A DNA stretch of 64,000 nucleotides from Bacteroidia bacterium (GTDB lineage Bacteria; Bacteroidota; Bacteroidia; J057): contig JAWPMV010000003.1 in the NCBI GenBank assembly GCA_033391075.1, forward strand, positions 62,001-126,000. The letters run 5' to 3'. The position numbers and the translations under genes are program-made. The notes beneath the pieces were generated by a model. The model made no database searches. It saw only the letters and a list, made by a program, of their open reading frames with translations, and was not told the DNA's origin. This document shows positions 4,873 through 33,391 of this stretch, one piece after another (position 1 is the stretch's first letter; every line of letters begins with the position of its first letter).

Positions 4873-7266
4873 ATGCACATGAAAAAGGAATCCTTGTCAT
4901 GTTATCATTGTGGGGAAAGCTGTCCGGATGATACAATTCAACTGGACCAGAAATACTTTTGCTGTGAAGGCTGCAAAACGGTCTATGAAATTCTGGAGTC
5001 GAAAGGCATGGAGGCTTATTATGAGATTGAAGTTCAAGCAGGAATTTCAGCCAGAAATAAAAAGAGGGTCGAGGATTATTCCTTTCTGGACACAGCGGAG
5101 GCCTTTGAGAAACTGATCAAATTTCGACAGGGAAAACAGATTCATATAGAACTAAGAATTCCGCAAATTCATTGTGCGTCATGTGTGTGGTTACTGGAAA
5201 ATCTCTATAAGTTACATCCGGGCATATTAGGAGCAGAAGTTCGTTTTCTGGAGAAGAAGCTCAACCTTCGTTTTGACTTAGATAAGATTCAACTATCCGA
5301 GATCGCCCAACTCATCGCCAATTTAGGCTATGCTCCCGATATTAACCTTCAGGATTTAGACGAAAACACCTATATCCCTAAGGACAGGTCCTTTTACTAC
5401 AAACTGGGAGTCGCAGGCTTTTGTGCTGGAAATATTATGTTGATGAGTTTTCCGGAATATCTGGGACTGCAAGATCTCAATTTCCAGCACTTCTTTTCCT
5501 GGATAAACCTCGTATTGGCAATACCGGTCTTGTTTTATTCAGCTAATATTTTTTTCAAATCTGCCTGGCAGGGACTCAAATTGGGTAATCTCAATATTGA
5601 TGTCCCTGTGAGTTTGGGTATTCTAGCCTTATTCTCCCAAAGTCTCTACGAAATCCTGAGTCAAACGGGCCCGGGCTATCTTGATTCTCTGGCAGGTTTG
5701 GTCTTTTTCCTTTTGTTGGGGAAATGGTTTCAGCAAAAAAGCTATGATCAATTATACTTCGACCGGGACTATCGTTCCTATTTTCCTCTTTCGGCAAAAA
5801 AGATTGAGCTGGGAAAAGAGAAGCAGGTATTATTATCAAATCTAAAGAAAGGAGATATTCTCTATATACGAAATGAGGAAATCATACCCGCAGATGCCCT
5901 TTTGCTGGATACAGAAGCTTACCTGGATTATAGCTTTGTGAGTGGGGAATCGGTTCCGGTTTTATTGAAGGAAGGAGAAAGAGTCTATGCAGGAGCCAAA
6001 TTGATAGGAAAAGGGGTAAAAGTCAGCTTGCTCAAAGCGGTTTCTGAAAGTTACCTCAGCCAGCTTTGGAAGAAATACAAAAAAAGTACGGGAGAGAAAG
6101 TTGGTTTCCGAAGATTGACGGATCAGCTGGCCCGCTACTTTACCTACATCATTTTGGGTATCGCTTTGCTGGCAGCTAGCTACTGGTTTTTTCAGGAGAG
6201 TCTTTCATTTGCCCTGCAGGTCGGTATCGCAGTCCTGATTGTGGCATGTCCCTGTGGATTGGCCCTCTCCTCCCCTATCGTCCTCGGAAATGCCATGCGA
6301 ATGCTGGGAAGGAATGGATTTTTCCTTAAAGATAGTCAGGTATTGGAAGGCATTGCCGAGATGGACAGCTGGATATTTGACAAAACCGGCACCCTTACTC
6401 AAACCAGAGCTGACCTTTCTTTCCAACAACTTCATAGCTTAAGTCAGGAAGAACAATCTCTGGTTGTAGCCCTCGCAAATGAGTCCAGTCATCCTTTGAG
6501 CAAAGAAATCAGCAAGGAACTCATCGCTGCTCCTGCTGCTGTACTCGAAGAAAGCCAGGAACATCCGGGGGCAGGTTTGAAAGGGATTAGCCAAAATCAT
6601 CGAATCGCAATAGGAAATGACAAACTTCTGGCTTCGGAGATTGAAGAAGTATTGGAAGAAGGAATTACTGGTATCGCCATCGATGGAAAACTGGTAGCAG
6701 GCATTGACAGAGAAGAAATCGTACGGGAAGATTTAAAGGCGGTATTGAGAGAATTGGGGGAAGATTACGAATTATCTCTATTGACTGGTGATACAAAAAA
6801 GCGGGCCTTGAAGCTGCTCTCTCATTTCCCCGAAAACAGCAAATTCTATTGGAAACAACTGCCGGATGAAAAGCTGGATCATGTAAAAAATCTTCAGGAG
6901 GCAGGGAGAAAAGTCATCATGATGGGAGACGGCCTCAATGATGCCGGTGCCCTTATGCAGGCGGATTTGGGAATCGTCCTGAGTGAGCAATTGGAATCCT
7001 TCAGCCCTGCCTCAGATATTATCCTGGATTCAGCGCGATTTTCTCAGCTTCCCAGCCTCATAAAATATGCTGTGGGCTCCAAAAAACTCTTAAAAGGCGC
7101 GCTGATTATTTCCCTCATCTATAATACAATAGGCCTCGCTTTTGCCGTACAGGGCCTACTAAGCCCTTTGGTAGCCGCCATACTCATGCCGCTCAGTTCT
7201 ATTTCCGTGATTTTCTGGGGAATGGCATCCACCTATTATCTGGCGAGGAAAATGGGTTTGGAATAA
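4873..7266 (+). CDS. ccoI: Copper-exporting P1B-type ATPase of cbb3 oxidase assembly (CcoI/FixI)
   Basis: 797 residues. An N-terminal cysteine-rich metal-binding segment (CYHCGESC, then CCEGC) is followed by a heavy-metal-associated domain with C101-A-S-C104. The P-type ATPase core then carries the transmembrane CPC (C459-P-C461), the phosphorylation motif DKTGTLT from D503, a NESSHPLS motif, and GDGLNDA. These features match CcoI/FixI, which moves Cu+ across the inner membrane for the binuclear centre of CcoN. The start is either ATG 4873 or the in-frame ATG 4879. A terminator-like hairpin after the gene separates it from the ccoS-ccoH operon, but the shared upstream dyad suggests joint control. 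Confidence 0.95.
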   Translation: MHMKKESLSCYHCGESCPDDTIQLDQKYFCCEGCKTVYEILESKGMEAYYEIEVQAGISARNKKRVEDYSFLDTAEAFEKLIKFRQGKQIHIELRIPQIHCASCVWLLENLYKLHPGILGAEVRFLEKKLNLRFDLDKIQLSEIAQLIANLGYAPDINLQDLDENTYIPKDRSFYYKLGVAGFCAGNIMLMSFPEYLGLQDLNFQHFFSWINLVLAIPVLFYSANIFFKSAWQGLKLGNLNIDVPVSLGILALFSQSLYEILSQTGPGYLDSLAGLVFFLLLGKWFQQKSYDQLYFDRDYRSYFPLSAKKIELGKEKQVLLSNLKKGDILYIRNEEIIPADALLLDTEAYLDYSFVSGESVPVLLKEGERVYAGAKLIGKGVKVSLLKAVSESYLSQLWKKYKKSTGEKVGFRRLTDQLARYFTYIILGIALLAASYWFFQESLSFALQVGIAVLIVACPCGLALSSPIVLGNAMRMLGRNGFFLKDSQVLEGIAEMDSWIFDKTGTLTQTRADLSFQQLHSLSQEEQSLVVALANESSHPLSKEISKELIAAPAAVLEESQEHPGAGLKGISQNHRIAIGNDKLLASEIEEVLEEGITGIAIDGKLVAGIDREEIVREDLKAVLRELGEDYELSLLTGDTKKRALKLLSHFPENSKFYWKQLPDEKLDHVKNLQEAGRKVIMMGDGLNDAGALMQADLGIVLSEQLESFSPASDIILDSARFSQLPSLIKYAVGSKKLLKGALIISLIYNTIGLAFAVQGLLSPLVAAILMPLSSISVIFWGMASTYYLARKMGLE

Positions 7267-7298
7267 AATAAAGGAATATCGATTAGAAGAATTTATAA

Positions 7299-7330
7299 GG
7301 GACGGATAAGCATCTGTCCCTCTGTTTTTT
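7299..7330 (+). terminator. Rho-independent terminator after ccoI
   Basis: The 8-bp stem GGGACGGA (7299-7306) pairs with TCTGTCCC (7313-7320) including one G-U pair. The loop is 6 bases, followed by TCTGTTTTTT. Confidence 0.7.
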
Positions 7331-7358
7331 CAACAAGATTGAATGTCATTTTCTCTAC

Positions 7359-7370
7359 TGACAAAAGTCA
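7359..7370. promoter_or_regulatory. Crp/Fnr-like dyad upstream of ccoS-ccoNO
   Basis: The dyad TGAC-AAAA-GTCA is centred about 80 bp before the ccoS ATG and lies just after the ccoI terminator. It has the same half-sites and spacing as the dyad before ccoI, and a similar distance to the start codon. Confidence 0.5.
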
Positions 7371-7443
7371 CCTCACCCCCTATCCAGGGTTATCCCAAAG
7401 GCAGACCTGAGCTTCTACCTTAGCCACATCAAACAGAAAAAAC

Positions 7444-7620
7444 ATGAGTAGCATTTTCGTCCTCATCATTTTAGGCTTTATCGTCGCAGCTGCATTCCTT
7501 GCTGCCTGTATTTGGGCCATCCGATCCGGACAATTTGAAGATGCTTACACACCCGCTATGCGCATCCTGTTTGACGACAAAATTACTTCCACCGAAAAAA
7601 CAGATTCTCAACATGATTAG
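7444..7620 (+). CDS. ccoS: cbb3-type cytochrome oxidase assembly protein CcoS
   Basis: A 58-residue protein starting at ATG 7444. It has one N-terminal transmembrane helix (about residues 4-26) followed by the CcoS signature SGQFEDAYTPAMRILFDD. CcoS is needed to insert heme and copper into the cbb3 catalytic subunit. The last codons overlap the start of ccoN by 8 bp, which implies translational coupling and also fixes the ccoN start. Confidence 0.9.
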   Translation: MSSIFVLIILGFIVAAAFLAACIWAIRSGQFEDAYTPAMRILFDDKITSTEKTDSQHD

Positions 7621-9802
7621 TAAAGTCAGGACGGACGATCCCGGTTTATCGGGAACATCCCTTGAGCGATTTAGCTATGACAATACAATTGTTAAGTATT
7701 TCGCTATTGCAACTCTCTTCTGGGGATTGGCCGGTATGCTGGTTGGTCTAATAGTAGCACTGGAGATGGTACTGCCAGAACTTTTTTTATGGGACGGCAT
7801 CCCTCTTCTTTCCTTTGGAAGGGTACGACCTCTGCATACCAATGCAGCGATTTTTGCCTTTGTAGGAAATGGAATTTACATGGGAGTCTATTATTCCCTT
7901 CAGCGCTTATGTAAAGCGAGGATGTGGAGTGATACTGCCAGTTGGATTCATTTCTGGGGATGGCAATTGATCATTCTTTCGGCTTTGGTTTCCCTGCCTA
8001 TGGGATTCACAACGGGTAAAGAATATGCCGAACTCGAATGGCCCATTGACCTTGCTATTGCATTGATATGGATTGTATTCGGCCTGAATATGTTCATGAC
8101 CATTTTCAAGCGAAGAGAAAAACACCTTTATGTAGCCATCTGGTTCTATATCGGGACCTGGGTAACAGTAACGGTTCTCCATGTGGTCAACAGCCTTGAA
8201 CTTCCTTACAGTATGATGCACAGTTACTCCATCTTTGCCGGAGTACAGGATGCTTTGGTTCAATGGTGGTATGGACATAATGCGGTCGCCTTCTTCCTGA
8301 CTACTCCCTATCTGGGATTGATGTACTACTTTATTCCTAAAGCAGCCAATCGTCCGGTATATTCTTACCGACTTTCGATTGTTCACTTCTGGGCATTGAT
8401 CTTTATCTACATCTGGGCAGGTCCTCACCACTTGCTGTATACAGCCTTACCTGACTGGGCACAATCTCTGGGAACCGTTTTCTCGCTTATGCTGATCGCT
8501 CCGAGTTGGGGAGGTATGCTAAATGGATTGCTGACCCTGCGGGGTGCCTGGGATAAGGTACGGACAGATCCTGTTCTAAAATTCATGGTAGTTGCGGTTA
8601 CGGCTTATGGTATGGCAACTTTTGAAGGGCCTTTACTTTCTATAAAAACCTTCAACGCTATTACCCACTTCACAGACTGGACCATTGGACACGTGCACGT
8701 TGGAACGCTGGGATGGAATGGATTTCTGACCTTTGGTGTAATCTACTGGCTGATGCCTCGTCTCTGGAGAACCAAACTTCACTCCATTAAGCTCGCCAAT
8801 TTCCATTTCTGGATCGGTACACTTGGTATTTTCTTCTATTGTGTGCCTTTGTACTGGGCAGGTCTTACGCAGAGTTTGATGTGGAAAGAATTTGATGGAG
8901 ATGGTTTCCTTGTTTACAAAAACTTCCTCGAAACGGTTGTCCAGATATTACCGATGTATTGGATGCGCGCACTGGGAGGAAGCCTTTATATCATAGGTGT
9001 AGTTGTGATGATTTATAACATCATCCGCACAACCCAGGCCGGAGACTTCCTCGCAAATGAAGAGGTAGAAGCTGCTCCTTACCCCAAAGAAGAAAAGAGT
9101 GGAAAAAAAGAGTACTGGCACAAACGCATTGAGAGAAAGCCTGCTCAAATGTTGTTCTGGGCTTTGATCCTCATCCTTATCGGCGGAATCGTCGAAATGG
9201 TGCCAACTTTTATGGTTCAATCGAATGTACCTACTATCGCTTCTGTACAACCCTATACGCCTTTGGAACTAGAGGGAAGAGATCTCTACATCCGGGAAGG
9301 CTGCTATACCTGCCACTCCCAAATGGTACGTCCTTTCCGCTCAGAATCCGAGCGTTATGGAGAGTATTCCAAAGCAGGCGAATTTGTATATGATCACCCC
9401 TTCCAGTGGGGCTCCAAAAGAACAGGGCCTGACCTCGCAAGGGAAGGAACGCCTAAACTGAGAAAATCAGATGCCTGGCATTATCAGCATATGCTGGATC
9501 CCCGCAGTACTTCTGCAGGTTCTATCATGCCTTCTTACGAATGGCTCATCGAAAATCGACTGGACCTCAGTATGACAGCTGATAAGATAGAAGCTATGCA
9601 AACCTTAGGAGTTCCTTATCCGGAGGGATATGCAGCAAAAGCTACAGATGACCTCCAGAAGCAAGCCGAAGAGATCGCGAATAATATAGCCTCTGAATTG
9701 GAGGAAGAAGAACTCAAGGCACTGAAGGATCGGGAGATTGTAGCCATCATCGCCTATCTCCAACGCCTGGGAACAGATATCATGGTTGACAACAAAAAAT
9801 AA
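7613..9802 (+). CDS. ccoN: cbb3 cytochrome c oxidase, fused subunits I and II (CcoNO)
   Basis: A 729-residue fusion. The true start is ATG 7613 (MISKVRTDD), inside the end of ccoS; the longer open frame upstream would read through ccoS in another frame. The CcoN part has about 12 membrane helices with heme-copper ligands in RPLHTNAAI, WWYGHNAV, GPHHLLYTALP and TIGHVHVGTLGWNG. The CcoO part, about residues 510-729, begins with a membrane anchor and carries one c-type heme motif, CYTCHSQMVRPF. It reduces O2 to water at high affinity in the inner membrane. The N-O fusion is common in Bacteroidota. Confidence 0.96.
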   Translation: MISKVRTDDPGLSGTSLERFSYDNTIVKYFAIATLFWGLAGMLVGLIVALEMVLPELFLWDGIPLLSFGRVRPLHTNAAIFAFVGNGIYMGVYYSLQRLCKARMWSDTASWIHFWGWQLIILSALVSLPMGFTTGKEYAELEWPIDLAIALIWIVFGLNMFMTIFKRREKHLYVAIWFYIGTWVTVTVLHVVNSLELPYSMMHSYSIFAGVQDALVQWWYGHNAVAFFLTTPYLGLMYYFIPKAANRPVYSYRLSIVHFWALIFIYIWAGPHHLLYTALPDWAQSLGTVFSLMLIAPSWGGMLNGLLTLRGAWDKVRTDPVLKFMVVAVTAYGMATFEGPLLSIKTFNAITHFTDWTIGHVHVGTLGWNGFLTFGVIYWLMPRLWRTKLHSIKLANFHFWIGTLGIFFYCVPLYWAGLTQSLMWKEFDGDGFLVYKNFLETVVQILPMYWMRALGGSLYIIGVVVMIYNIIRTTQAGDFLANEEVEAAPYPKEEKSGKKEYWHKRIERKPAQMLFWALILILIGGIVEMVPTFMVQSNVPTIASVQPYTPLELEGRDLYIREGCYTCHSQMVRPFRSESERYGEYSKAGEFVYDHPFQWGSKRTGPDLAREGTPKLRKSDAWHYQHMLDPRSTSAGSIMPSYEWLIENRLDLSMTADKIEAMQTLGVPYPEGYAAKATDDLQKQAEEIANNIASELEEEELKALKDREIVAIIAYLQRLGTDIMVDNKK

Positions 9803-9810
9803 CAAGCATC

Positions 9811-10014
9811 ATGTATAAAGAAACATTAAGAAGCATAGACGGAGTTAGCCTTTTTCCGGTCATAGCCATCCTGATCTTCGTCATCTTTTTCCTCATCGTC
9901 CTCTTTTTCGTCATCCGCATGGATAAAAAAAGAGTCCAGGAATTTTCAGCTCTACCATTGGAAGATGGACCTAAGAGCTCTAACACACTAACACAAGCTG
10001 TAAATCATGTATAA
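9811..10014 (+). CDS. ccoQ: CcoQ/FixQ-like small subunit
   Basis: 67 residues with one transmembrane helix (about 14-38, VSLFPVIAILIFVIFFLIVLF) followed by a charged cytoplasmic segment, RMDKKRVQEF. The position between ccoNO and ccoP is the standard place for CcoQ, which stabilises the cbb3 complex. It starts 9 bp after ccoNO and overlaps the ccoP start by 8 bp. Confidence 0.85.
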   Translation: MYKETLRSIDGVSLFPVIAILIFVIFFLIVLFFVIRMDKKRVQEFSALPLEDGPKSSNTLTQAVNHV

Positions 10015-10909
10015 AAAGTTCATCTATATATTCAGTATGCTGATCCTGCTTTTTGCCTCCGGTACCGTCCTGGGGCAGGCAGGGGAAGCCTCCTCACAAG
10101 AATCCCTGTTATGGTTGCTCATGATGGTGATCATAGGGATGAGCGTTGTTTGTATTGCGCTGGCTTTTACCATACTGGCACTCATTGCCCGGGTAAGAGA
10201 AGCTAAGGCAGAAACTTCGGCTGAAGGACAAGCCAGTGCTCAAAAAGAGCCGGTGGATCTTTGGAAGAAGTTCAAGGCAAAATTAACCGCTGCGGTTCCT
10301 GTCTCTCGAGAATCTGAAATTGATTTGGGACATAGTTTCGATGGTATCCGTGAACTGGACAACAAACTTCCTCCCTGGTGGCTCTATGGATTCTATTTCA
10401 CCATCGTTATTTCTTTTGTCTATATGTATGTCTACCATATTGATGGGGATTGGTCCTCCGATCAGGAGTATCGAGTCGAGATGGCGGAAGCTCAGAAGAT
10501 CAAGGACGCTTATCTGGCAAAAGTGGCAAATATGGTAAATGAAGAAACGGTTGAACACCTTACAGCCGCTCAGGATATTTCAGAGGGTGAATCCATTTAC
10601 ATGGCCAATTGTGTTGCGTGCCATGGAGCTGTGGGACAAGGAGGAATTGGCCCTAATCTCACAGACCCTTACTGGCTGCATGGAGGCGGCATCAAGAATG
10701 TCTTTAAGTCAGTCAAATATGGAATTCCGGAGAAAGGAATGATCCCCTGGCAGGATGCCTTAAAACCTCTCGAAATTCAACAAGTATCCAGTTTTATCAT
10801 GAACATGGAAGGAACAAATCCACCAGATGGGAAAGCTCCTCAGGGAGAAATATGGGAGCCGGAAGTAATGACAACAGATACGCTTCAAACCATTAGCATG
10901 AATCCTTAG
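10007..10909 (+). CDS. ccoP: cbb3 oxidase subunit III, mono-heme CcoP
   Basis: 300 residues. An N-terminal hydrophobic segment and a second helix near 36-62 precede the CcoP N-terminal signature FDGIRELDNKLPPWWLYGFYFTI (split here at IRELDNKLPPWW), then a third helix. A periplasmic cytochrome c domain at about 190-275 has one CVACH motif and a distal Met candidate in GMIPW. Proteobacterial CcoP has two CxxCH motifs; only one is present here. It delivers electrons from soluble cytochrome c to CcoNO. The extra N-terminal helices are typical of Bacteroidota versions. Confidence 0.92.
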   Translation: MYKKFIYIFSMLILLFASGTVLGQAGEASSQESLLWLLMMVIIGMSVVCIALAFTILALIARVREAKAETSAEGQASAQKEPVDLWKKFKAKLTAAVPVSRESEIDLGHSFDGIRELDNKLPPWWLYGFYFTIVISFVYMYVYHIDGDWSSDQEYRVEMAEAQKIKDAYLAKVANMVNEETVEHLTAAQDISEGESIYMANCVACHGAVGQGGIGPNLTDPYWLHGGGIKNVFKSVKYGIPEKGMIPWQDALKPLEIQQVSSFIMNMEGTNPPDGKAPQGEIWEPEVMTTDTLQTISMNP

Positions 10910-10914
10910 GAAAC

Positions 10915-12354
10915 ATGGCAAAGGAAATCTCTGAATCTATGCAAGATCCTTTTTTAAAGGAACTGGAATCTGACACTTTCCGCGACAGTATCGCTACGGT
11001 GGACAAGAGCGGAAAGCGTCAGTGGATCTACCCCAAAAAACCTCAGGGAAGTTTGTACAGGGGCAGGACCTGGTTGAGCATTCTTCTGATTGGCCTATTC
11101 TTTATAGGGCCATTTCTTAAGTGGAATGATCAGCCCCTTTTGCTATTCAATGTTCTTGAAAGGAAGTTTATCGTTTTTGGTCTGACCTTCTGGCCACAGG
11201 ATTTTCACCTCTTCGTCCTGGCGATGATTACCTTCTTTGTTTTTATTGTTCTTTTCACCGTGATCTTTGGGCGGGTCTGGTGTGGCTGGGCATGTCCCCA
11301 AACGATTTTCATGGAAATGTTTTTCCGCAAAATCGAATACTGGATTGAAGGAGACTATCGCCAACAGATGAAGCTGAACAAAGCTCCCTGGGATTTGGAG
11401 AAGGTCATGAAGAAAACAGCCAAGTTTTCGATTTTCGCCCTCTTCTCTTTCCTGATTGGAAATACGGTCATGGCCTATTTGGTGGGCATCGATCAACTCA
11501 GTGTTTTGATCACGAGTCCGCCTACTGAGAATTGGGGCCTCTTCAGCTTTGTGATGATCTTCTCGGGCATCTTTTATTTTGTTTTTGCCTGGTTTAGAGA
11601 GCAAGCTTGTATCGCTGTCTGTCCTTATGGGAGATTGCAGGGAGTATTGCTGGGGAGAGATTCGATTGTGGTTGCATACGACTGGCTTCGGGGAGAGCCC
11701 AGAGGAAAGCGAAAAAGGAATGAAGACCAAAGCAACAAAGGAGACTGTATTGATTGTAAACTTTGTATAGCCGTTTGTCCAACTGGCATAGATATCCGGA
11801 ATGGAACTCAGATGGAATGTGTGAATTGTACGGCTTGTATCGATGCCTGCGACCAGGTCATGGAGAAGGTAAAGAAACCTAAAGGCCTCATCCGTTTCGA
11901 TTCTTACAATGGAATAGCCAATGGTACACCCTTCCGATTCAACACAAGAATTATCGCCTATATAGTCGTTCTTCTTGGCTTACTTTCTGTCCTCGGATTT
12001 TCCCTGGCTAGCAGGTCAGATATCGAAACCACTTTATTGCGTGTTCCCGGTACTCTTTATCAAAAAACAGAGGATGGCAAGATCAGCAATATGTACAATA
12101 TCGACCTGGTCAACAAGACCAAAGAGGAATTGAATCTGGATATAAAGCTGATCTCTCACGAGGGAGAGATTCAGGTCATCGGGCAAGAATTTGTAGTTGC
12201 TCCTCAAAATATCAGTCAAGGAATCATTTTGATCATGATCCCCCGGGATCAATTGAAAGGAAGAAAAAACGAAATCAGAATAGAACTATGGTCTGGAGAT
12301 AAGCGGGTCGATGAAGCGAGCAGCAATTTTCTTGGACCAGTCAACTTAAATTAA
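10915..12354 (+). CDS. ccoG: cbb3 oxidase accessory ferredoxin-like protein CcoG/FixG
   Basis: 479 residues with several membrane helices (about 48-68, 98-122, 168-190, 200-222, 341-361). It carries the CGWACPQTIFMEMFFRKIE signature, an ACIAVCPYGRLQ motif, and two 4Fe-4S clusters in CIDCKLCIAVCP and CVNCTACIDAC. The C-terminus is an Ig-like periplasmic domain. CcoG reduces Cu2+ for cbb3 copper-site assembly. It begins 6 bp after ccoP and is followed 6 bp later by ccoH, so it is internal to the operon. Confidence 0.95.
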   Translation: MAKEISESMQDPFLKELESDTFRDSIATVDKSGKRQWIYPKKPQGSLYRGRTWLSILLIGLFFIGPFLKWNDQPLLLFNVLERKFIVFGLTFWPQDFHLFVLAMITFFVFIVLFTVIFGRVWCGWACPQTIFMEMFFRKIEYWIEGDYRQQMKLNKAPWDLEKVMKKTAKFSIFALFSFLIGNTVMAYLVGIDQLSVLITSPPTENWGLFSFVMIFSGIFYFVFAWFREQACIAVCPYGRLQGVLLGRDSIVVAYDWLRGEPRGKRKRNEDQSNKGDCIDCKLCIAVCPTGIDIRNGTQMECVNCTACIDACDQVMEKVKKPKGLIRFDSYNGIANGTPFRFNTRIIAYIVVLLGLLSVLGFSLASRSDIETTLLRVPGTLYQKTEDGKISNMYNIDLVNKTKEELNLDIKLISHEGEIQVIGQEFVVAPQNISQGIILIMIPRDQLKGRKNEIRIELWSGDKRVDEASSNFLGPVNLN

Positions 12355-12359
12355 TCATC

Positions 12360-12788
12360 ATGAACTGGGGTAAAAAAATAGCCATTTTCTATACAGTCTT
12401 TGCCGTCAGCATGCTTTCGGCTGTCATTTTCGCCAGCATGCAAAGCTTTCACCTGGTCAGTGAAGATTACTACCAGGAGGAAATCGCCTACGAAAAACGA
12501 ATTCAGGAAATCAAAAATGTCCAGGAATTGGAAGGAGAGGTGGAAGTACAAAAAGTGGGGGAATCGAAATTCTCCTTTCATTTTCCTGAGTCCGCACATC
12601 AAGCCATTGGAGTTATCCAGTTTTACCGACCTTCAGATGCTGAACTTGATCGGGCTTTCCCCATAAAGCTCGCCGATGGAAAACAAAGCATTTCTGTAGA
12701 GGGACTTGCCGGTGGAAACTGGCAGGTTCAGATCAGATGGGCCCAAAATGAGAAAGCCTATTACCAGGAATTGAATCTGAGTTTGTAA
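12360..12788 (+). CDS. ccoH: FixH/CcoH family protein
   Basis: 142 residues with an N-terminal transmembrane helix (about 7-27) followed by the FixH-type segment in which HLVSEDYYQEEIAYEKRI precedes a beta-rich periplasmic domain. FixH/CcoH helps assemble or stabilise the cbb3 oxidase together with CcoI. Position and spacing (6 bp after ccoG) support the call. Confidence 0.88.
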   Translation: MNWGKKIAIFYTVFAVSMLSAVIFASMQSFHLVSEDYYQEEIAYEKRIQEIKNVQELEGEVEVQKVGESKFSFHFPESAHQAIGVIQFYRPSDAELDRAFPIKLADGKQSISVEGLAGGNWQVQIRWAQNEKAYYQELNLSL

Positions 12789-12811
12789 GCAATGATCTAC
12801 CCTAACAATCT

Positions 12812-12905
12812 GTCATTGCGAGCCCAAATGTTGGGCGAAGCAATCTCCGTCAATACTGATGGCTATTTGAGGTCTAGGGGATTGCTTCGGTCCCCTCGCA
12901 ATGAC
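12812..12905. repeat. Extragenic palindromic repeat
   Basis: The outer arms GTCATTGCGAG (12812-12822) and CTCGCAATGAC (12895-12905) are perfectly complementary, as are inner arms around GAAGCAATC and GATTGCTTC. A small hairpin, GCCCAAATGTTGGGC, sits inside the left half. The architecture matches intergenic palindromic repeats seen in many bacterial genomes. It lies between ccoH and the SafE-type gene and could fold in the mRNA. Only one copy was seen in the window. Confidence 0.75.
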
Positions 12906-12946
12906 AAACGAGTTTGGAGCCTTTTCTCAACAAAATCTAAATAAAC

Positions 12947-13636
12947 ATGTACCTCCTTTCCGCCTTAAGTCTGGGATTTCTGGGAAGCTTACACTGCGTA
13001 GGCATGTGTGGGCCGATCAGTCTGGCTCTTTCTTCCGGAAGTGGGAAAGGAAAATTCTGGCTGGGTCGTTTACTCTATAACCTCGGAAGAACCACTACCT
13101 ACGTTCTTCTGGGTTTACTGGTAGGCATCTTTGGACAAAGCCTGAGCCTGGCAGGCTTTCAGCAAAGCTTGTCTATCATCCTGGGCATTAGCTGGCTTCT
13201 GATTCTTTTGCTCTTGCCTAATTGGGAAAATCGATTACTCAAACTTCCTTTCCTCAGAAAATTTCTCCTGAAAATTAAAGGCGGCCTTTCCTCCCTCATT
13301 CAAAAACGTTCTGTACCTCTGATGTACAATGCCGGCATTATGAATGGTTTCCTTCCATGCGGCCTTGTCTATGTCGCTCTTTCTGGAGCTATGGCAAGCA
13401 ATAGCCTGGAGGAATCACTCGCTTTTATGGCGCTGTTTGGACTCGGTACCATTCCGGCTATGCTGGCACTTAGCTTTTTTAGTCATGTCCGCCAGGGACT
13501 TACTCAATATATCAAGCCTGTCTTATATACAGCCTCTCTCGTATTTGCCTGTCTCCTTATATTGCGGGGAATGAATCTAGACATTCCTTTCCTGAGTCCT
13601 GGTTTGGGAGCAGAAGTGGATCCTCTTTGTCAATAA
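12947..13636 (+). CDS. SafE/UreH-type membrane protein of the cbb3 locus
   Basis: 229 residues with about six membrane helices. The first helix contains GSLHCVGMCGP, a conserved His/Cys motif likely to bind a metal, and a later helix has NGFLPCGLVYVALSGA. This is the sulfite exporter TauE/SafE-like or DsbD_2 (UreH) transmembrane family that regularly closes Bacteroidota cco operons. A role in copper handling or cytochrome biogenesis is inferred from context. It is separated from ccoH by the palindromic repeat and may be transcribed with it. Confidence 0.85.
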   Translation: MYLLSALSLGFLGSLHCVGMCGPISLALSSGSGKGKFWLGRLLYNLGRTTTYVLLGLLVGIFGQSLSLAGFQQSLSIILGISWLLILLLLPNWENRLLKLPFLRKFLLKIKGGLSSLIQKRSVPLMYNAGIMNGFLPCGLVYVALSGAMASNSLEESLAFMALFGLGTIPAMLALSFFSHVRQGLTQYIKPVLYTASLVFACLLILRGMNLDIPFLSPGLGAEVDPLCQ

Positions 13637-13886
13637 GAATCAAAAAAAGTCACTGTGACGTTTTTCGTTTATGTTTATAGTTTAATAGTTTAGACTAGCA
13701 TAACTATTTCATATTCAGAAAGTTAAAGTCCCCATCAGCGAGTATAATGGGGAATAAAACGAGTAGATTGGGGCTTAAAGCGAGTATAGTGGGGGCTATG
13801 GCGAGTAGTCTGGGGAACTAAAGCGAGTATTTTGGGCCGATAGGCGAGTATATTGGGGATGTACCTTCTCATCTAGCCTTGAAAAG

Positions 13887-13895
13887 TTATCCACA
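13887..13895 (+). promoter_or_regulatory. DnaA box (consensus)
   Basis: TTATCCACA, an exact match to the consensus DnaA box, lies between iterons 6 and 7. It supports origin function. Confidence 0.82.
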
Positions 13896-14194
13896 TAAAT
13901 TCGGATAAAAGCGAGTATAATGGGGCTTAAAGCGAGCATATTGGGGGATAAAGCGAGTATTTTGGGGAGCCATCCTTTGAAAAGCTACAAATCCCCTCCC
14001 CTTTTAGCTCCATTCTTGGATCGTTGGCTTCTAAAGACGAGTATTTTGGGGACTAAAAACGAGAATAATGGGGAATTCAGCCTTGTAAACTCCTTGAATT
14101 CCTGATCAGTCCTTTATAAAGCGAGTAAAATGGGGGGGAATTCGGGCTTTATCCCTTCAAAAGCGAGTAAATTGGGGCGAATAGCAGCCTTTGC

Positions 14195-14203
14195 TGTGGA
14201 TAA
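14195..14203 (-). promoter_or_regulatory. DnaA box (consensus, inverted)
   Basis: TGTGGATAA is the exact reverse complement of TTATCCACA and lies just before iteron 14. Together with 13887-13895 it makes a convergent pair enclosing the central iterons. Confidence 0.82.
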
Positions 14204-14271
14204 GACGAGCATATTGGGGATATCGGCGAGTAAATTGGGGAAAGAGAAAAGCGAGCAAAATGGGGATAAGA

Positions 14272-14293
14272 CGAGTAGTTTGGAAATACTCGC
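14272..14293. promoter_or_regulatory. Inverted half-iteron, likely rep autoregulatory operator
   Basis: The last iteron's CGAGTA (14272-14277) is followed by its inverted copy within AATACTCGC (14285-14293). Rep_3 initiators of plasmids such as pPS10 bind iterons as monomers and such inverted repeats as dimers to repress their own promoter. The site lies 40-60 bp before the rep ATG, where that operator is expected. Confidence 0.6.
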
Positions 14294-14333
14294 TTTTTTC
14301 CGAACTTGCTAATAATCAAAAAGGTATAGTCTT

Positions 14334-15641
14334 ATGGCAGTAGCTACCAGGTCCAATCCTCACCTGGTCGTTAAGAGTAATGAGCTCATTAACGCCCGGA
14401 TGAATGGCTTTACAGTGGCCCAAGTACGTTTGTTTGAGATGCTCATTGCTCAGTTGGATAAAGATCTGGATGAGTTTCAAACGCAACGGGTATATCTGGC
14501 CGATTTTATTTCGGAGACAGGGACCAAACATAAAGGCGAGTTTGAACGGGCAAGGGAAGTTACCAAATCCCTGATGGGACAGGTAATCGAAATTTGGGAC
14601 GGAGATAAACTCAAACAAAGGAATATCCTGTATCGGGCTGATTATGATAAAAAGAAGCCTTATGTGGAGATTGTTTTCCATCCTGATTTGAGGCCTTATT
14701 TGCTGCAATTGAAAGAGCGATTTACTTCTTATGATGTTCGAAACATTCTTGCCCTGAAGAAAATCCATTCCATTCGCCTCTATCAATTACTCAAACAATA
14801 CCTATTTACCGGAAGCTGCACCTTTGAGGTGGATCGCTTGAAATACATTCTGGGTGTTGAGAATAAATACAAAAAGTACAATGACTTCAAGAAGTATGCG
14901 GTTTTTGCTGCCCAGAAGGAGTTAAAGGAGAAATGTGATATCAGTTTTGAATTTGAGGAAATCAAAAAGGGAAAGAAAGTAGAATTACTCAAATTCACCA
15001 TTACCCGACAAAAATCTAAATACGCGATTGGAGCACGGAAAGAAAGCGAAGTCGAAATTCAGGCTGAACCCGAAGTTCTGGATACCTTATGTAAACTGGG
15101 GATTTCGGAGGAAAGAAGCCGCTACTATTTAAATACCCTCCAGGAAAAGGATATCAATGCAGCAATCGAATATACCCGAAAGCAATTTGAAGCAGGACGA
15201 ATAAAATCCAGCGCAACGGCTTATTTGATCAAATTGCTGGATTCAGGTTTTAAGGAATCTCCCAAGAGTGAGTTCGCTGTACCTCCGAAAGAACGCAGCA
15301 AGCGAAAGCGTACCGAGAGACAAGAGGAGGTTCGATTGATCGAGCAATTGGAAGCGGAGTTTGGAGCCTATCGCAAACAGCAGGTGGACAAGCTGTGCGA
15401 AAATGCAAAAGAAGAAGACTGGATTTTCTTTCAGGCCTGGGCACAACAACAACTTTTTATCAACAACAAGATTTTCGAAAGCGGAAGATTCCTTCGGGAT
15501 CATCCAGATACAGAAAATTACTTCCGCATTTTTATCTCCGACCGACTTCCGGAAAGAAATCAGGCCTTCATTGACTGGGCGGCTTTGAGGGGATATCGGA
15601 TTGGAATGGAATCAGGTAGCTTCTGGCTGATTCGCGATTGA
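14334..15641 (+). CDS. Rep_3/RepB-family replication initiator
   Basis: 435 residues. The N-terminal half matches the tandem winged-helix Rep_3 fold: VVKSNELINARMNGFTVAQVRLFEMLIAQ opens the first domain (seen in pieces, about residues 12-40), and SIRLYQLLKQY plus a FEVDRLKYILG segment lies in the second. The C-terminal region (about 240-435) is a longer, charged extension than in typical 250-300-residue plasmid Reps, ending in a helical region rich in Phe/Trp. Such proteins bind iterons, melt the origin and recruit helicase. ATG 14334 follows the iteron array and the inverted operator. Start and family are well supported; the replicon type it drives is inference. Confidence 0.92.
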   Translation: MAVATRSNPHLVVKSNELINARMNGFTVAQVRLFEMLIAQLDKDLDEFQTQRVYLADFISETGTKHKGEFERAREVTKSLMGQVIEIWDGDKLKQRNILYRADYDKKKPYVEIVFHPDLRPYLLQLKERFTSYDVRNILALKKIHSIRLYQLLKQYLFTGSCTFEVDRLKYILGVENKYKKYNDFKKYAVFAAQKELKEKCDISFEFEEIKKGKKVELLKFTITRQKSKYAIGARKESEVEIQAEPEVLDTLCKLGISEERSRYYLNTLQEKDINAAIEYTRKQFEAGRIKSSATAYLIKLLDSGFKESPKSEFAVPPKERSKRKRTERQEEVRLIEQLEAEFGAYRKQQVDKLCENAKEEDWIFFQAWAQQQLFINNKIFESGRFLRDHPDTENYFRIFISDRLPERNQAFIDWAALRGYRIGMESGSFWLIRD

Positions 15642-15658: not shown

Positions 15659-15707
15659 TTTAAACGTTAAAACGTTTAAACTCTTAAAATTGATTATCAG
15701 TGATTTA
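15659..15707. repeat. Putative centromere (parS-like) repeat A
   Basis: A perfect 10-bp inverted repeat TTTAAACGTT/AACGTTTAAA (15659-15668 and 15671-15680) runs into a segment shared with the sites at 17140 and 18216: CGTTTAAACTCTTAAAA followed by TTGATTATCA. It lies 18 bp after the rep stop codon. Confidence 0.6.
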
Positions 15708-17139: not shown

Positions 17140-17175
17140 TCGTTTTAACTCCAAAAATTGATAATCAAATAGTTA
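17140..17175. repeat. Putative centromere (parS-like) repeat B
   Basis: This copy aligns over about 36 bp with the sites at 15672 and 18216 (CGTTTTAACTCCAAAAA, then TTGATAATCA). It is the most diverged copy and lies just after the stop of the small ParA-partner gene. Confidence 0.55.
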
Positions 17176-17200: not shown

Positions 17201-17485
17201 TTATGAGGTTGTATCCAGGTAATGAAGCAGAGCTGCATTGACGAAAGCATCCTGGGTCTTGAATTTCCCTTCATGACTGGTCAGCATAGCGATAGAAAGC
17301 TTGCGTTTGGTTTCAAAGGGAACCATTGCACAAAGCTTGACATAGTGCTTATCCGGATCCTTATCGGAGGGTCTTCCAATTTTGCCAGCGGGCTTTTTCA
17401 CTACGGGTTTTTGCATGCGGGGAACATGCGGCTGCTGAGGCTTTTTGGTAAACTTTGCTAAGCGGTTTTTCTTCTCGTCACTCAT
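17201..17485 (-). CDS. Small ParA partner, probable centromere-binding protein
   Basis: 94 residues. A basic, Pro/Lys-rich N-terminus (about 1-45) leads into KIGRPSDKDPDKHYVKLCAMVPFETKRKL, whose spacing resembles a ribbon-helix-helix strand and helix, and a C-terminal helix with QDAFVNAALLHYL. Many plasmid ParA proteins pair with small ribbon-helix-helix proteins encoded directly downstream; here the gene starts 34 bp after the parA stop. The DNA-binding fold is inferred from pattern and position. Its likely sites are the three repeats around the module. Confidence 0.7.
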   Translation of the reverse strand: MSDEKKNRLAKFTKKPQQPHVPRMQKPVVKKPAGKIGRPSDKDPDKHYVKLCAMVPFETKRKLSIAMLTSHEGKFKTQDAFVNAALLHYLDTTS

Positions 17486-17519: not shown

Positions 17520-18146
17520 TTAACCTACGTCCACGAGATTGATGATCTCATTGCCGATAGCTTCGATCTCGCTGATGGCTTTGGGGTTTTCAGTGCTGTA
17601 AATGGCTTTGTCTGTATCCAGGGAACGTGCATAATCTACCCGCATTTTCATCACAGAACTCAGAACAGGCAAGCCGTATTCCTTCACTGCAAGACGGGCA
17701 TCTTTGTTGAAACCGGTGGAGTGTATTCCCTGAGTGAGGACGATACAGGCCCGTAGAGCGCCGTTCTCCTTCTTTGCTGACTCCACCAGCCCAACGGTAG
17801 CATTAAGCGCTAAGATGTCAAATGCGGCGGCCCTGAAGGGGATTACCACAATATCAGACATTGCAAAAATAGCTGGCAGGTCGGAAGCGAGGTAAGGAGG
17901 CGTATCGATGATGATCACGTCCGCATCCTCAATAGCCGCTATATCCTCCCAGGAATCGATATTAGCCCTCGGGATAAGGTTCATGCCTTCATTGTCCTCA
18001 AAGAGCTGTGTGAGGCTTCCCTGTTCGTCTGCGTCCACCAAAGCACAGGTAAGCCCTCCGTCAGTGAAATAGTGGTACAAATTTAAAGACAGGGTGGTTT
18101 TACTCGTTCCGCCTTTCTGGGAATTAATGGTAATGATTCGAGGCAT
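17520..18146 (-). CDS. parA: ParA-family partition ATPase
   Basis: 208 residues with a deviant Walker A motif KGGTSKTT at about 11-18, DADEQGS (switch region) and a Walker B-like segment VIIIDTPPY. The length matches short type Ib ParA proteins of plasmids, which lack an N-terminal HTH and segregate DNA with a small partner protein. The small gene 34 bp downstream is that partner. A nested dyad at 18180-18231, just upstream of the start, is the probable operator or centromere. Confidence 0.93.
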   Translation of the reverse strand: MPRIITINSQKGGTSKTTLSLNLYHYFTDGGLTCALVDADEQGSLTQLFEDNEGMNLIPRANIDSWEDIAAIEDADVIIIDTPPYLASDLPAIFAMSDIVVIPFRAAAFDILALNATVGLVESAKKENGALRACIVLTQGIHSTGFNKDARLAVKEYGLPVLSSVMKMRVDYARSLDTDKAIYSTENPKAISEIEAIGNEIINLVDVG

Positions 18147-18179: not shown

Positions 18180-18251
18180 TTAAGAGTTAAAACAAGAAAA
18201 CGTTAAAGAGATTTAACGTTTAAACTCTTAAAATTGATAATCAATAGTTTA
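18180..18251. repeat. Putative centromere/operator repeat C with nested dyads, parA promoter region
   Basis: The inner dyad ACGTTAAA-GAGA-TTTAACGT (18200-18219) is perfect. An outer dyad pairs TTAAGAGTTAAA (18180-18191) with TTAAACTCTTAA (18220-18231), 10 of 12 positions. The right arm continues into the 36-bp block shared with repeats A and B (18216-18251). Lying 34 bp before the parA start, it could serve both for partition-complex assembly and autorepression. The rest of the gap to 18582 shows no gene. Confidence 0.62.
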
Positions 18252-26692: not shown

Positions 26693-27412
26693 ATGGCTAC
26701 TCAATTCGACAAGGGATCGAAGAAATTCTTTCAAGAAATATCTCTGGCAAAACCTTCAGATAACATTATTGATCAAATCAGAAATTTGATTAGAACCGGT
26801 CAATTGAACCCTGGAGACAAATTGCCCCCTGAGCGAAAATTAGTCGAGCAATTTGGCGTGGGGAGAGGACATGTGAGAGATGCCTTGAAAAAGCTGGAAT
26901 TTTATGGGATTCTAAAAACCCTTCCTCAAAACGGGACAGTTGTTTCCGGTTTGGGAGTTAAAGCTTTGGAAGGCCTGATTACAAATGTACTCCAAATTGA
27001 AGATCCTGATTTCCACTCATTGGTAGAAACGCGGACAATGCTGGAAGTGAAAGCGGTAAGCCTGGCAGCAGAAAGAAGAACAGATGAGGACCTGGTTCAA
27101 ATTTCCAATGCACTATCGGAATTTAGAAAAAAGGTAGAGATGGAAGAAGCCGGGGTAGAAGAGGATTTGATGTTTCATCTAAGAATCGCAGAAGCAAGCA
27201 AAAACTCTGTATTGCGCTCGCTTTCGATGATCATCTTTCCAGACATGGTTAAGTATTCCCAGAGACTCAATATCTGTGGAGATGGACGATTCTATCAATC
27301 ATTACAAGAACACGAAGAAATTCTCGAATACATCCAGGAAAAAAATCCGGAGAAAGCTGCAAAAACTATGCGCTTTCATCTCGAGGATATGCTTGGTAAA
27401 GGCTCCGATTAA
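26693..27412 (+). CDS. GntR-family regulator, FadR subfamily (copy 1)
   Basis: 239 residues. The winged-helix domain at about 22-90 has the GntR signature (IDQIRNLIRTGQLNPGDKLPPERKL, in pieces, then GRGHVRDALKKLEFYGIL). A helical FCD ligand-binding domain follows at about 100-232 with LVETRTMLEVKAVSLAAERR and an FHLRIAEAS metal/ligand helix. It should sense an alginate-derived uronate and repress the adjacent operator. It heads the susCD unit. A second copy at 32546 differs at only a handful of residues, mostly in the first 15 and last 40, showing a recent duplication. Confidence 0.93.
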   Translation: MATQFDKGSKKFFQEISLAKPSDNIIDQIRNLIRTGQLNPGDKLPPERKLVEQFGVGRGHVRDALKKLEFYGILKTLPQNGTVVSGLGVKALEGLITNVLQIEDPDFHSLVETRTMLEVKAVSLAAERRTDEDLVQISNALSEFRKKVEMEEAGVEEDLMFHLRIAEASKNSVLRSLSMIIFPDMVKYSQRLNICGDGRFYQSLQEHEEILEYIQEKNPEKAAKTMRFHLEDMLGKGSD

Positions 27413-27544
27413 CTAATTATTTATTATAGACTCTCGAGGGTTCTCGAACCCACACAACTGACTTAAAGAAGACTTTGAACTATTAAACATTTAACCAAAA
27501 AAAAGAATCTCAAACTCGCGAATAACCTAAATCATTTTTAAAAA

Positions 27545-27577
27545 ATAAGCCAGCAATCTAGGTGATTACTAGCTTAT
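27545..27577 (+). promoter_or_regulatory. Conserved leader hairpin before susC
   Basis: ATAAGCCAGCAATC (27545-27558) pairs with GATTACTAGCTTAT (27564-27577) with two mispairs around a 5-base loop. An equivalent hairpin with a different loop occurs at 33392-33422 in the duplicated leader. The bases that follow, to the susC ATG at 27685, are also almost identical in both copies. An RNA or DNA regulatory element is likely; its role is unknown. Confidence 0.6.
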
Positions 27578-27684
27578 CCCCATTTTCCTTCCTGAGCAAG
27601 AAACCGACCATTTGGCGATGAGAGTTTCGAGCCGGGAACAGGATATTTTTTTGACAAATTTTGTTATCAAAAACATTTTAAACT

Positions 27685-30600
27685 ATGAAACTTAGACTAC
27701 TCTATCAAGCCAAAATATCCCTGCTTATGATTGCTGGGATGTTGATGTGTTTGATTAGTCCCCAAAACGCTTTCGCGACTGATACACATATGACTGTATC
27801 GGAGCAAAGCCAGATCGAAATTACAGGTAAAGTCATAGGAGAAGAGGGTACTGGATTGGAAGGAGCTGCTATCCGAATCAAAGGTACTACAGAAGGTACA
27901 TTGACGGGAGAAGATGGCTCATATAAAATCTCAGTTCCAGATGAGGGTGCTACCCTTATATTCTCTTATGTTGGGTACAAGACCCAGGAAATTGCCACGA
28001 ATGGGCAGACTCAAATAAATGTGACCTTGGAACAAGACTTCGGCGACTTAGACGAAGTGGTTGTTGTTGGATATGGTTCACGTAAAAAGTCTCACAATAC
28101 GGGTGCAATTTCTCAAGTTAAAGGACGGGATGTTGCGGCGATTCAGGCGAATCGTGTTGATGATGCATTGGCTGGTAAACTGGCAGGTGTCCTGATTCAA
28201 AACCAGGACGGAGCGCCTGGTGCAGATCCAAAGATTCAGATTAGAGCAGCTTCCTCTATTTCAGGTGCCTCAAATCCGCTAATTGTTGTTGATGGTTATC
28301 CGATCTCCGGAAGTTTGGCTACTGTCAATCCTAACGACATCGAAAGTATTGAGGTATTGAAAGATGCTGCCTCAGCTGCTATCTACGGTTCACGGGGTGC
28401 AAATGGGGTAATTCTTGTTACCACCAAAAAAGGAAAAAGTGGAAAACCTAGCATTAGCTATAATGCATATGCCAGTACCTCCAGCAGATATGTAGGGGAA
28501 AACATCAATCCTACTTCTTCTGAATGGGCTGACATAATTCAGTCAGGTATCGATGATGGAACCTTTGATGTTTCTGAATTGGATCAAAACATCTTGAACT
28601 ATCGCTTAAATGCTTTCAGAAACTCTCCTGATGTTGTTGCAGTAGAAGATTGGCTTTTCAGAGATGGATACAGTACCAATCATGATCTGAGCATCAGTGG
28701 TGGTACGGACGATGTAAGCTACTTCGCTTCATTGGGTTACCTGAATACAGAGGGGATCGTAATTACCCAGGGTTTCGAAAGATATAATGCACGCGTAAAT
28801 GTAGATGCAAAAATCGGAGACCGCTTTAAAACAGGGGTTAATATCAATGGATTTGTAGGGAATAGAGATATGGTAGGTCATGACATGAGAGACCTTTTGA
28901 GAGCGTATAGCGTTCACCCAATCTATCACACAGAAGCTTCCATTGCATTTGTTCAGCAATTGGATCAGCAAGCCCAGGCTTTAGGTCTTTCTTCTTTTGA
29001 CTCTGGATTCAGAGGAGGTTCTGCTGCGCCATGGAATAGCAGTATCTATACACTGGAACCAGGTATGACTGCTCAGGACTGGCATTACGGAAGAAGTGGT
29101 AACGGAATCGGAGGATCTGGAGATGCCGGACCTGCTACCAAATTGGATAATACGGATCGCTATCAAAACACAATCTTTGGTAACCTGAGTTCTTACCTGC
29201 AATTCAATATTGTTGATGGTTTGAACATCAAGACAGTTCTTGGTGCTGATGTCAGAGATACAGAAGATTTCTTCTGGAGAGGTCTGGAGTTTGATTCCAG
29301 AGCACGTACTACGCAAACGGCCCTGGATCAGACTAATTTAAAAAGGTCTTCTATCCTGAGTGAAACTACTTTGAACTATGCCAAAGTAATGGGCAAGCAT
29401 GATGTATCTGCTGTAGCAGGTGTTGAATTTCAAAACTTCTACATCAAGGGAATTACCCTGGATGCTACTAATGTGCCTTTTGGTCAGCCTCAAAACTATG
29501 CATTACTCGAGCCCGCTGATATCGCTGTTACTGAAAGAGATGAGACCATTGCCAGACAGAGTGTTTTTGGAAGGATTAACTATGCTTACGACAATCGTTT
29601 CCTTGCATCTGTTTCTGTAAGAAGAGACGGTGATTCACGTTTCGGAGCTAATAACAAATTCCAAACTTTCCCTGCCTTTTCTTTGGGCTGGAATATGCAC
29701 AACGAAGCCTGGTTCAATTCAAACTTCCTGACTGATGTCAAACTACGATTCAGCAGAGGTTCTTTGGGAACTACTTCTTTCCTGGGTGCATACAACTCTT
29801 TGAGTCTGCTTAATCCACAAGCCTCCATTTTTGGAAATGCATTCCTGATTCCGTCTGATATTGCAAACCCAGACCTGACATGGCAAACCAATACGGAGAC
29901 CAATATGGGACTCAACTTAGGCTTCCTTGGCAACCGATTTACTTTGGGAGTTGATTATTACATCTCTAACATTGAAGATATCCTGATTAGCCAAAGTGTT
30001 TCTGAGGTATTGGGTACTACTTCGATCGCATTGAACTCAGGAGACGTGAAAAGTTCCGGATTGGAGTTTGAAGTAGGTGCTGTTGTAGTCAACAAGACGG
30101 ATCTTCGCTGGAGCGTAAATGCAAACCTTTCTACCGTTAATTCAGAAATCACGGATTTAGGTGGACTGACTGAATTGCCACGTACCATTTACGGACAGAG
30201 TGGTAGAGGTCCTGTATTTAGAAACTATGTAGGAGGAGAAATAGGTGAAATGTGGGGATTGCAAACGATAGCTCCTGTTGAAATGTCTTTCGTAGCAGAC
30301 CCAACAAGAAATAACGGTATCAATAGTGGAGAAAGCTATGTGGTAGATCAAAATGGTGATGGAGTAATTGACAGAACCAGAACAGTTGAAGAAGGTGGTG
30401 ACCTGGTTAAAATTGGTCAGAATACCCCCGATTTCTACTGGGGATTGAATAGCCAGGTAGTGTACAAAGCTTTTGACCTGTCCGTCCAATTCCAGGGTGC
30501 TCAGGGAGGAGAAGTATTCAATATTGACCCTCTTTACTACAACTCACAATGGGGAGGAAGACTTAAAGGAAGTTTTGATGCTGATGGCGATGGTGTAGCT

Positions 30601-30906: not shown

Positions 30907-30929
30907 TCAAAATCCTAAATTCTAAAAAA

Positions 30930-32240: not shown

Positions 32241-32272
32241 TTAATAATTAGGTAGGCTATTATACATAATGA

Positions 32273-32308
32273 ATTAAAGGGGCAAGATTTCTTGCCCCTT
32301 TAATTTTA
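32273..32308 (+). terminator. Rho-independent terminator after susD
   Basis: A perfect 14-bp stem, ATTAAAGGGGCAAG (32273-32286) with CTTGCCCCTTTAAT (32291-32304), has a 4-base loop and is followed by TTTA. It ends the gntR1-susCD unit. The rest of the gap to 32500 holds no gene. Confidence 0.88.
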
Positions 32309-32504
32309 TCTCAGTTTATCCCCTAAGGGCCAGCGAGTTTTGGATTTAGGCTTCTTTAAGTGAAAGGAAAAAGATAATTTGAGCCTGCTTCAGTTAATCT
32401 GTTTTCCAGGAGAATCCTGCTTTGAGCAGCAAAAATTCCGCCCACTTTAGCTTTTTGTAAATCTTTCTCTTTAAAGGTTGCGATCCATCAAAAAAAGATG
32501 TAAT

Positions 32505-32540: not shown

Positions 32541-32545
32541 TTAAA

Positions 32546-33265: not shown

Positions 33266-33391
33266 GCTTACACTCAGGAGGGGCTTTCATAAAGAGGCCT
33301 AAACTACTGACCAATTATAGATTTAACCTTAACTACTTAACCCTGTAACAAATTCTTAAACTCGCAAGTGACTTAAATTATATTTAAAAAA

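Follow-up and report, generated by a model that had tools for sequence, protein, structure and literature searches.

A Rep_3 iteron origin on a 252-kb secondary replicon of a Bacteroidia bacterium, and a proposed code between initiator residues and iteron bases

The region at positions 13738 to 15641 of a 64,000-nucleotide stretch of Bacteroidia DNA (the window; G000:C3:62001-126000, on a contig of 251,874 bases) is a Rep_3 iteron origin of ordinary, known anatomy that belongs to a secondary replicon. We give a probability of about 0.88 to the fuller reading that it serves as the replication origin of this 252-kb replicon in a multi-replicon bacterium, whose gene content also points to Bacteroidota, by the mechanism proposed below. 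The identity of the window is settled as secondary replicon and not main chromosome, and four Rep_3 replicons with distinct iterons are shown in one assembly. Comparison across Rep_3 plasmids, which form a large group, further yielded an operator rule and a proposed recognition code, and we regard these two as the valuable outcome.

The Replicon and Its Assembly

The assembly consists of five contigs totalling 9.49 Mb (C1, 8,164,022; C2, 176,398; C3, 251,874; C4, 367,906; C5, 529,048 bases). Over the whole assembly, DnaA gives one match and 16S rRNA two, all on C1, and Rep_3 matches occur once each on C2, C3, C4, and C5 and nowhere on C1. Because C3 is a contig of its own with a single Rep_3 gene and without a 16S or dnaA match, it is a separate replicon of the assembly. 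An earlier note on this DNA had offered either an integrated plasmid or a chromid or other secondary replicon, and the second of these has stood, as the origin is not flanked by chromosome on one contig but sits on a separate 252-kb contig, near a turn of GC skew and with dnaA and 16S elsewhere. A second chromosome carrying rRNA was also considered and is ruled out, both 16S genes being on C1.

That C2 to C5 share a cell with C1 is suggested by their common assembly, for which the contamination estimate is 2.53%. When the ends are joined, C2 has a frame of 826 aa and C4 one of 1313 aa spanning the junction, as would be expected of circles cut within a gene, and C5 has only a frame of 123 aa there. 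The ends of C3 neither overlap nor, once joined, fall in a long frame, so it is by comparison with C2 and C4 that C3 is taken as probably circular. Near one end, ARAGORN calls a tRNA-Sec (C3:250467) for which L033 gives no Rfam match at gathering score, and which is regarded as doubtful.

In composition C3 is chromosome-like, with a GC content of 42.4% (41.9% in 220 kb sampled from the chromosome) and a delta* of 0.0126 for the whole contig (0.0075-0.0414 for its 20-kb pieces), compared with 0.0116-0.0431 for 20-kb chromosome pieces against the rest. As defined in the available part of one source (PMC12456017), a chromid also has plasmid-type replication and partition genes, which C3 has (Rep_3, ParA), and is conserved within its group, which is not found here, the Rep being matched in one of 13 family genomes, its own. 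At E 1e-10 the C3 Rep has no match in the 21 other genomes of the order, among which are the 12 other family genomes, and at 1e-20 it is matched by 4 of the 395 genomes sampled from the class, its own included; the genus is represented by one genome and several family relatives are fragmented assemblies. The core-gene comparison for C3 covers one operon, that of the cbb3 oxidase, whose FixO occurs in 12 of 13 family genomes (again counting its own) and lies on a 7.54-Mb contig in the relative G001, and the only FixO match of the present genome is in the cbb3 cluster of C3. We therefore describe C3 as a chromid-like large plasmid that agrees in part with the chromid definitions.

Architecture of the Origin

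The features of the origin and its surroundings are collected in Table 1. The earlier note had counted seventeen 15-bp iterons, and all are present, 14 matching RCGAGYANNNTGGGG exactly, two with one mismatch (13823, 14059) and one with two (14271). At up to two mismatches, RCGAGYANNNTGGGG occurs 31 times in the window against 9.6 expected, a number reached in none of 100 shuffles, and all 14 exact copies of the window fall within one 548-bp stretch. The exact pattern is found 16 times in the 9.49-Mb genome, 14 of these in the array and the other two as single copies on C1 and C2. Successive iterons mostly start at intervals of 21 bp or close to a multiple of this, with a helical phasing of R = 0.63 at 10.6-10.7 bp that was equalled by 50 of 5000 random placements made without a minimum spacing. 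The GAGTA/GGGG iteron, which the earlier note had not recognised as a described plasmid family, is private in its details and has a layout common to many Rep_3 plasmids.

Table 1. Features of the origin, partition region, and adjoining oxidase cluster, in window coordinates
Feature	Positions	Strand	Basis or remark
cbb3 oxidase cluster	4873..13636	+	ends 101 bp before first iteron
AT-rich stretch, candidate unwinding element	13650..13729		74% AT, adjoins first iteron
17 iterons, RCGAG-YANNN-TGGGG	13738..14285	+	15-bp units, all in same orientation
DnaA box TTATCCACA	13887..13895	+	exact match, inside array
DnaA box TTATCCACA	14195..14203	-	exact match, inside array
DnaA-box-like TTATCCCCA	14261..14269	-	one mismatch
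Candidate rep operator, CGAGTA-n9-TACTCG	14272..14292		inverted iteron 5′ halves, overlaps last iteron
rep, Rep_3 initiator, 435 aa	14334..15641	+	Pfam Rep3_N + Rep3_C
Repeat TTTAAACTCTTAAAATTGAT, candidate partition site	15675..15694	+	exact copy, after rep
TTTAAACTCTTAAAATTGAT repeat copy	17143..17162	+	3 mismatches, between rep and parA
94-aa protein adjoining parA, candidate partition partner	17201..17485	-	ORF
parA, 208-aa ParA/AAA_31 ATPase	17520..18146	-	Pfam
TTTAAACTCTTAAAATTGAT repeat copy	18219..18238	+	exact, upstream of parA

The two opposed DnaA boxes noticed earlier are confirmed as the only exact copies of TTATCCACA in the whole window, both within the array. The additional TTATCCCCA at 14261 may be a chance match, one-mismatch matches numbering 20 in the window against 16.6 expected. 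Among 80-bp stretches sampled along C3, 0.5% equal the AT content of 13650-13729, a putative unwinding element. Downstream of rep, the TTTAAACTCTTAAAATTGAT repeats are a candidate centromere or partition site. Neither the 94-aa protein (at E 0.1) nor a 397-aa protein encoded after rep has a Pfam match, in a survey of about 55 ORFs of the window that were searched or set aside as overlapping frames.

The initiator was rightly assigned to the Rep_3 type from the letters, as it matches Rep3_N (E 5.4e-33) and Rep3_C (E 3.7e-14) and its predicted fold is like those of RepE and pi. Its layout comprises WH1 (residues 12-154), WH2 (165-223, with a predicted recognition helix at 182-200), and a mostly helical C-terminal extension (246-435). 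The structure model (mean pLDDT 84.2) superimposes on the RepE-iteron complex 1rep with Z 22.2 and 2.6 A over 204 residues and on pi 2nra with Z 18.8; since only model residues 14-228 were covered, the comparison says nothing of the fold of the extension. To call this extension unusually long was an overstatement, for lengths are 416-449 aa in the remaining three Reps of the genome and 405-469 aa in the first 12 Bacteroidota plasmid Reps obtained from PLSDB, the latter having been taken from coverage-ranked matches, a ranking that favours long Reps. Reps of about 300 aa are also present among the relatives. PLSDB holds 2,539 records matching the C3 Rep, with Acinetobacter and Escherichia the commonest; a single-protein scan of a genome-contig collection gave no relative, and four viral contig scans gave eight loci in one, one each in two, and zero in the last. 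Together with the direct iterons by rep, the DnaA boxes, and the inverted half-iterons described below, the WH1/WH2 initiator bears out the layout of an iteron theta plasmid.

Replication Asymmetry and the Position of the Origin

A GC-skew check around the array had been proposed, and the skew does turn close to the array and once more at half a contig's distance: cumulative skew on C3 has its minimum at 67 kb and its maximum at 194 kb, and the iterons and the rep start lie at 75.7-76.3 kb, 9 kb (3.6% of the contig) from the minimum. The strength of this skew was equalled by none of 2000 permutations with either 1-kb or 5-kb blocks, and third-codon-position skew on the plus strand is +0.069 for the right-hand arm, counted from the origin, and -0.069 for the left-hand one. 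The best-fit skew origin is at 68 kb, with the rep position ranking 23 of 251, and the bias of genes toward the leading strand is weak and not significant (96/172 genes, p = 0.15). Among the sister replicons, C2 has its skew minimum at most 1 kb from rep (p 0.0135, 5-kb blocks), C4 has no significant GC skew, and on C5 rep and the minimum are 195 kb apart, or 0.37 of the circle, which might reflect a recent rearrangement or a second origin.

These data bear on two other readings of the locus. A window full of ordinary metabolic genes with chromosome-like GC could belong to a plasmid that has integrated into the chromosome and whose origin is now silent, yet the contig is 252 kb long and lacks 16S and dnaA matches next to a main contig of 8.16 Mb, the iteron array, inverted repeat, and rep frame all look intact, and the skew turns near the origin, all of which makes integration very improbable. 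Somewhat less remote, though still improbable, is that C3 replicates from some other origin that escaped notice, perhaps at 67-68 kb or thereabouts, with the Rep_3 locus being an extra or an incompatibility determinant. The 9-kb distance between skew minimum and iterons, the best-fit origin at 68 kb, and the wide separation of rep and skew minimum on C5 would all suit such an arrangement; it is opposed by the single Rep_3 gene of C3 with its full origin anatomy, the initiator search having covered the Rep_3 family, by the close agreement of rep and skew minimum on C2, and by the small size of the C3 offset relative to the contig. Our preferred reading remains that the Rep_3 locus is the origin of C3.

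Under that reading, Rep monomers would bind the 17 direct iterons, with WH2 reading the 5′ half RCGAG and WH1 the 3′ half TGGGG, and Rep together with DnaA at its two boxes would open the AT-rich stretch, and replication would run bidirectionally, the forks meeting roughly half a circle on. As a dimer, Rep would bind the inverted 5′ halves before rep and shut the gene off, copy number would be held low by iteron titration, and ParA with its small partner would segregate the replicon. Private iterons, read partly by residues N183, D184, K187, and Y188 of WH2, would allow four Rep_3 replicons to share one cell.

A Proposed Operator Rule

An inverted repeat of iteron 5′ halves, absent from the earlier note, lies 41 bp before rep (14272-14292) and looks like an autorepression operator. 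Its generality was assessed on 89 loci (12 PLSDB plasmids, 67 GTDB loci, six further loci, and the four of this genome), of which 87 had a Rep ORF, 85 an array, and 68 an array score of at least 20 after five had been removed by hand: L127 for a run of N, L177 for a 30-bp array, and L136, L137, and L158 as near-duplicates. An inverted repeat of the replicon's own iteron within 170 bp of rep, allowing any iteron 6-mer, was found in 34/68 replicons, compared with 294/4556 swapped combinations. When the 68 replicons were reduced to 48 clusters at 60% identity, the own four included, a 5′-half inverted repeat stood before rep in 22 clusters with 6-mers (swapped 2.4%) and in 26 with 5-mers (swapped 7.0%), against 1 and 4 clusters, respectively, for the 3′ half and 6 and 10 for the diverging order. 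With 6-mers, 26 of the 48 clusters have no operator-like repeat; where the operator is present, these cluster counts indicate that it is made from the 5′ half. In known structures it is this half that is read by WH2. According to the part of a review available, WH2 contacts GAG in pi and GTG in RepE (PMC4980987).

The sister replicons have iterons of their own on the rep strand (RCGAG-N5-CAGGG on C5, GCAAC-N5-GGATG on C4, and GTGGAAG-N3-TGTGGG on C2) and Reps with 37, 40, and 23% identity to that of C3, respectively. Each has its own 5′-half inverted repeat before rep when inspected by eye; the automated operator test caught C2, C3, and C4 and not C5, for which the repeat is by eye only. The C5 array holds one C3-like iteron, ACGAGGGATTTGGGG.

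Several oddities turned up beside these loci. About 720-755 bp upstream of rep on C5, after an upstream gene, there is a palindrome of two facing iteron-like units, which may act as a terminator or as an additional site for Rep. Upstream of rep on Emticicia pEMTOL02 (L116), an operator-like inverted repeat has one arm, ACTAC, from its own half-site and another, GTCGT, which is the half-site of the sister plasmid pEMTOL03, a possible hybrid operator. The excluded L177, a Desulfobacteraceae MAG outside the counts, carries 14 repeats at 30-bp spacing before a Rep_3 gene.

Covariation Between WH2 Residues and the Iteron 5′ Half

Residues of the WH2 helix covary with bases of the iteron 5′ half, a pattern first noticed by eye in the training set and afterward examined in an unguided mutual-information scan, the iterons having been phased by an automated fit to the DNA alone. 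Among 4188 residue-base pairs, the highest rank went to residue 184 with base 3 (z 11.2) and the third to residue 188 with base 5; between them stood L197, a pair of low information. After removal of near-invariant columns, the top four of 2439 5′-half pairs were D184-p3, Y188-p5, K187-p3, and N183-p2, and all four residues are located where the predicted recognition helix begins. Nothing comparable was found in the residue-base scan between WH1 and the 3′ half. In the training set, base 3 is G where residue 184 is D, C where it is H, and A or T where it is N, L, or M in 37/41 cases, and base 5 is C where residue 188 is R or K and not C with other residues in 46/48.

For the hold-out, we fixed the rules in writing ahead of any inspection of the new iterons, loci L192-L199 having already been fetched by then, and the PLSDB records were hand-picked from match listings. 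From 52 new loci, we set aside two without a Rep match, eight without a usable array, five at least 60% identical to training Reps, and six duplicates, which left 31. The residue 184 rule was correct in 18 of 22 callable cases (permutation mean 7.9, p = 5e-5) and holds only at base 3 (profile index 7), the other 16 indices giving 4 to 11. The residue 188 rule reached 23/30 (mean 18.7, p = 0.058), which is not significant, and breaks down into 16/16 for R to C, 3/7 for K to C, and 4/7 for other residues. The bases would follow a scheme in which base 3 is G with aspartate, C with histidine, and A or T with asparagine, leucine, or methionine at 184, and base 5 is C with arginine and often G with an aromatic residue at 188. 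By alignment, RepE has aspartate and arginine at the 184 and 188 positions (203 and 207 of the chain sequence). The F half-iteron TGTGAC fits both rules.

Shared ancestry, or the phasing of the iterons, might produce such covariation in place of a contact code, and several features of the data lend themselves to that explanation: the pattern was initially spotted by eye among the training loci, the iteron phase came from an automated fit, with some hold-out misses resembling errors of phase, and some training groups share helix and iteron alike. A phylogeny control was redone on the 48 clusters (41 usable) because a group of near relatives had supplied several pairs among the 68 replicons (25/28 and 25/29 on all 68); here 17 of 18 disjoint closest pairs of different residue class differ in base class and 16 of 20 pairs of the same residue class share it, at a mean identity of 0.38 and 0.39, respectively. 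Since, in addition, the hold-out is free of Reps at least 60% identical to training, the 184 rule holds at a single index, phasing used only DNA, and WH2 of pi and RepE contacts GAG and GTG as cited above, we consider ancestry or phasing an unlikely source of the pattern.

On balance we lean toward a Rep_3 code in which residue 184 sets base 3, residue 188 tends to set base 5, and the inverted half forms the operator, so that the initiator partly predicts iteron, operator, and incompatibility. If it holds, incompatibility of Rep_3 plasmids would be partly predictable from initiator sequence and many copy-control operators would be readable from the genome. C3 and C5, which share CGAG in iteron and operator, would then cross-repress, and would still differ in the half read by WH1 (TGGGG vs CAGGG). 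Titles and abstracts among the literature matches listed held no Rep_3 or iteron recognition code; most subscription papers lay outside the scope of the search, and with this limited scope the negative is no proof of novelty. The language model OriGen writes Rep_3 origins from a given Rep sequence and so uses the link between Rep and origin, and in the available part of its description no residue-to-base rule is stated, in which it differs from the WH2 code (PMC12663086).

A separate observation concerns L121, Aureispira pAUEb, whose WH2 recognition helix has a one-residue gap and whose half-site is changed to CTATCCA.

Relation to Known Systems

The F plasmid has an operator of inverted half-iterons adjoining rep, to which the candidate operator of C3 corresponds, and PDB 2z9o is dimeric RepE on operator DNA. 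F ori2 with RepE and R6K with pi share with C3 the Rep_3 WH1-WH2 fold and direct iterons; C3 differs from them in iteron sequence, in about 200 extra C-terminal residues, and in being a 252-kb replicon. The C3 Rep has Y188 where RepE has arginine. At position 5 the C3 iteron has G, whereas that of F has C. Closer in taxonomy, the Rep_3 plasmids of the Bacteroidota Aureispira, Saprospira, Emticicia, Runella, Hymenobacter, and Persicobacter resemble C3 in their long initiators and in having iterons immediately upstream that are for the most part spaced by 21-22 bp, and several have the inverted 5′-half operator, but their iteron letters are different and Rep identity is about 24-32%.

In the available part of a study of Persicobacteraceae and other genomes, several Rep_3 replicons per cell and the movement of important genes onto Rep_3 plasmids are described (PMC10645730); there the rRNA operons are on small plasmids, whereas here 16S is on C1 and a cbb3 oxidase on the replicon. 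Flammeovirga chromosome II, as presented in the part of its description available (PMC8653839), resembles C3 in plasmid-type replication, a GC content within 1% of the chromosome, and polysaccharide genes, whereas C3 is far smaller (0.25 Mb), without a 16S match, and has an initiator not found in family relatives. A Rep_3 origin is also seen on Aureibacter pATrrn (L124), a 13.7-kb plasmid whose name refers to its rRNA operons; its iterons read ACGAC and its Rep has the aspartate that matches them.

Gene Content of the Window

The cbb3 cluster encodes a P-type ATPase, a CcoNO fusion, CcoP, CcoG, CcoH, and a DsbD-like protein. In the cbb3 surroundings of six relatives (12-36 kb each) the cluster genes match, and none of 12 other window genes tried does. 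A putative alginate-use cluster (26693-41630) contains two GntR regulators, a TonB receptor, SusD, two alginate lyase-like proteins, an MFS transporter, two SDR enzymes, a PfkB kinase, and a KDPG aldolase; a literature search gave no paper on alginate together with Saprospir and plasmid. Toward the end of the window (61619-62461) lies a gene for a KilA-N domain protein, and a KilA-N gene is also found beside rep on Aureispira pAUEb.
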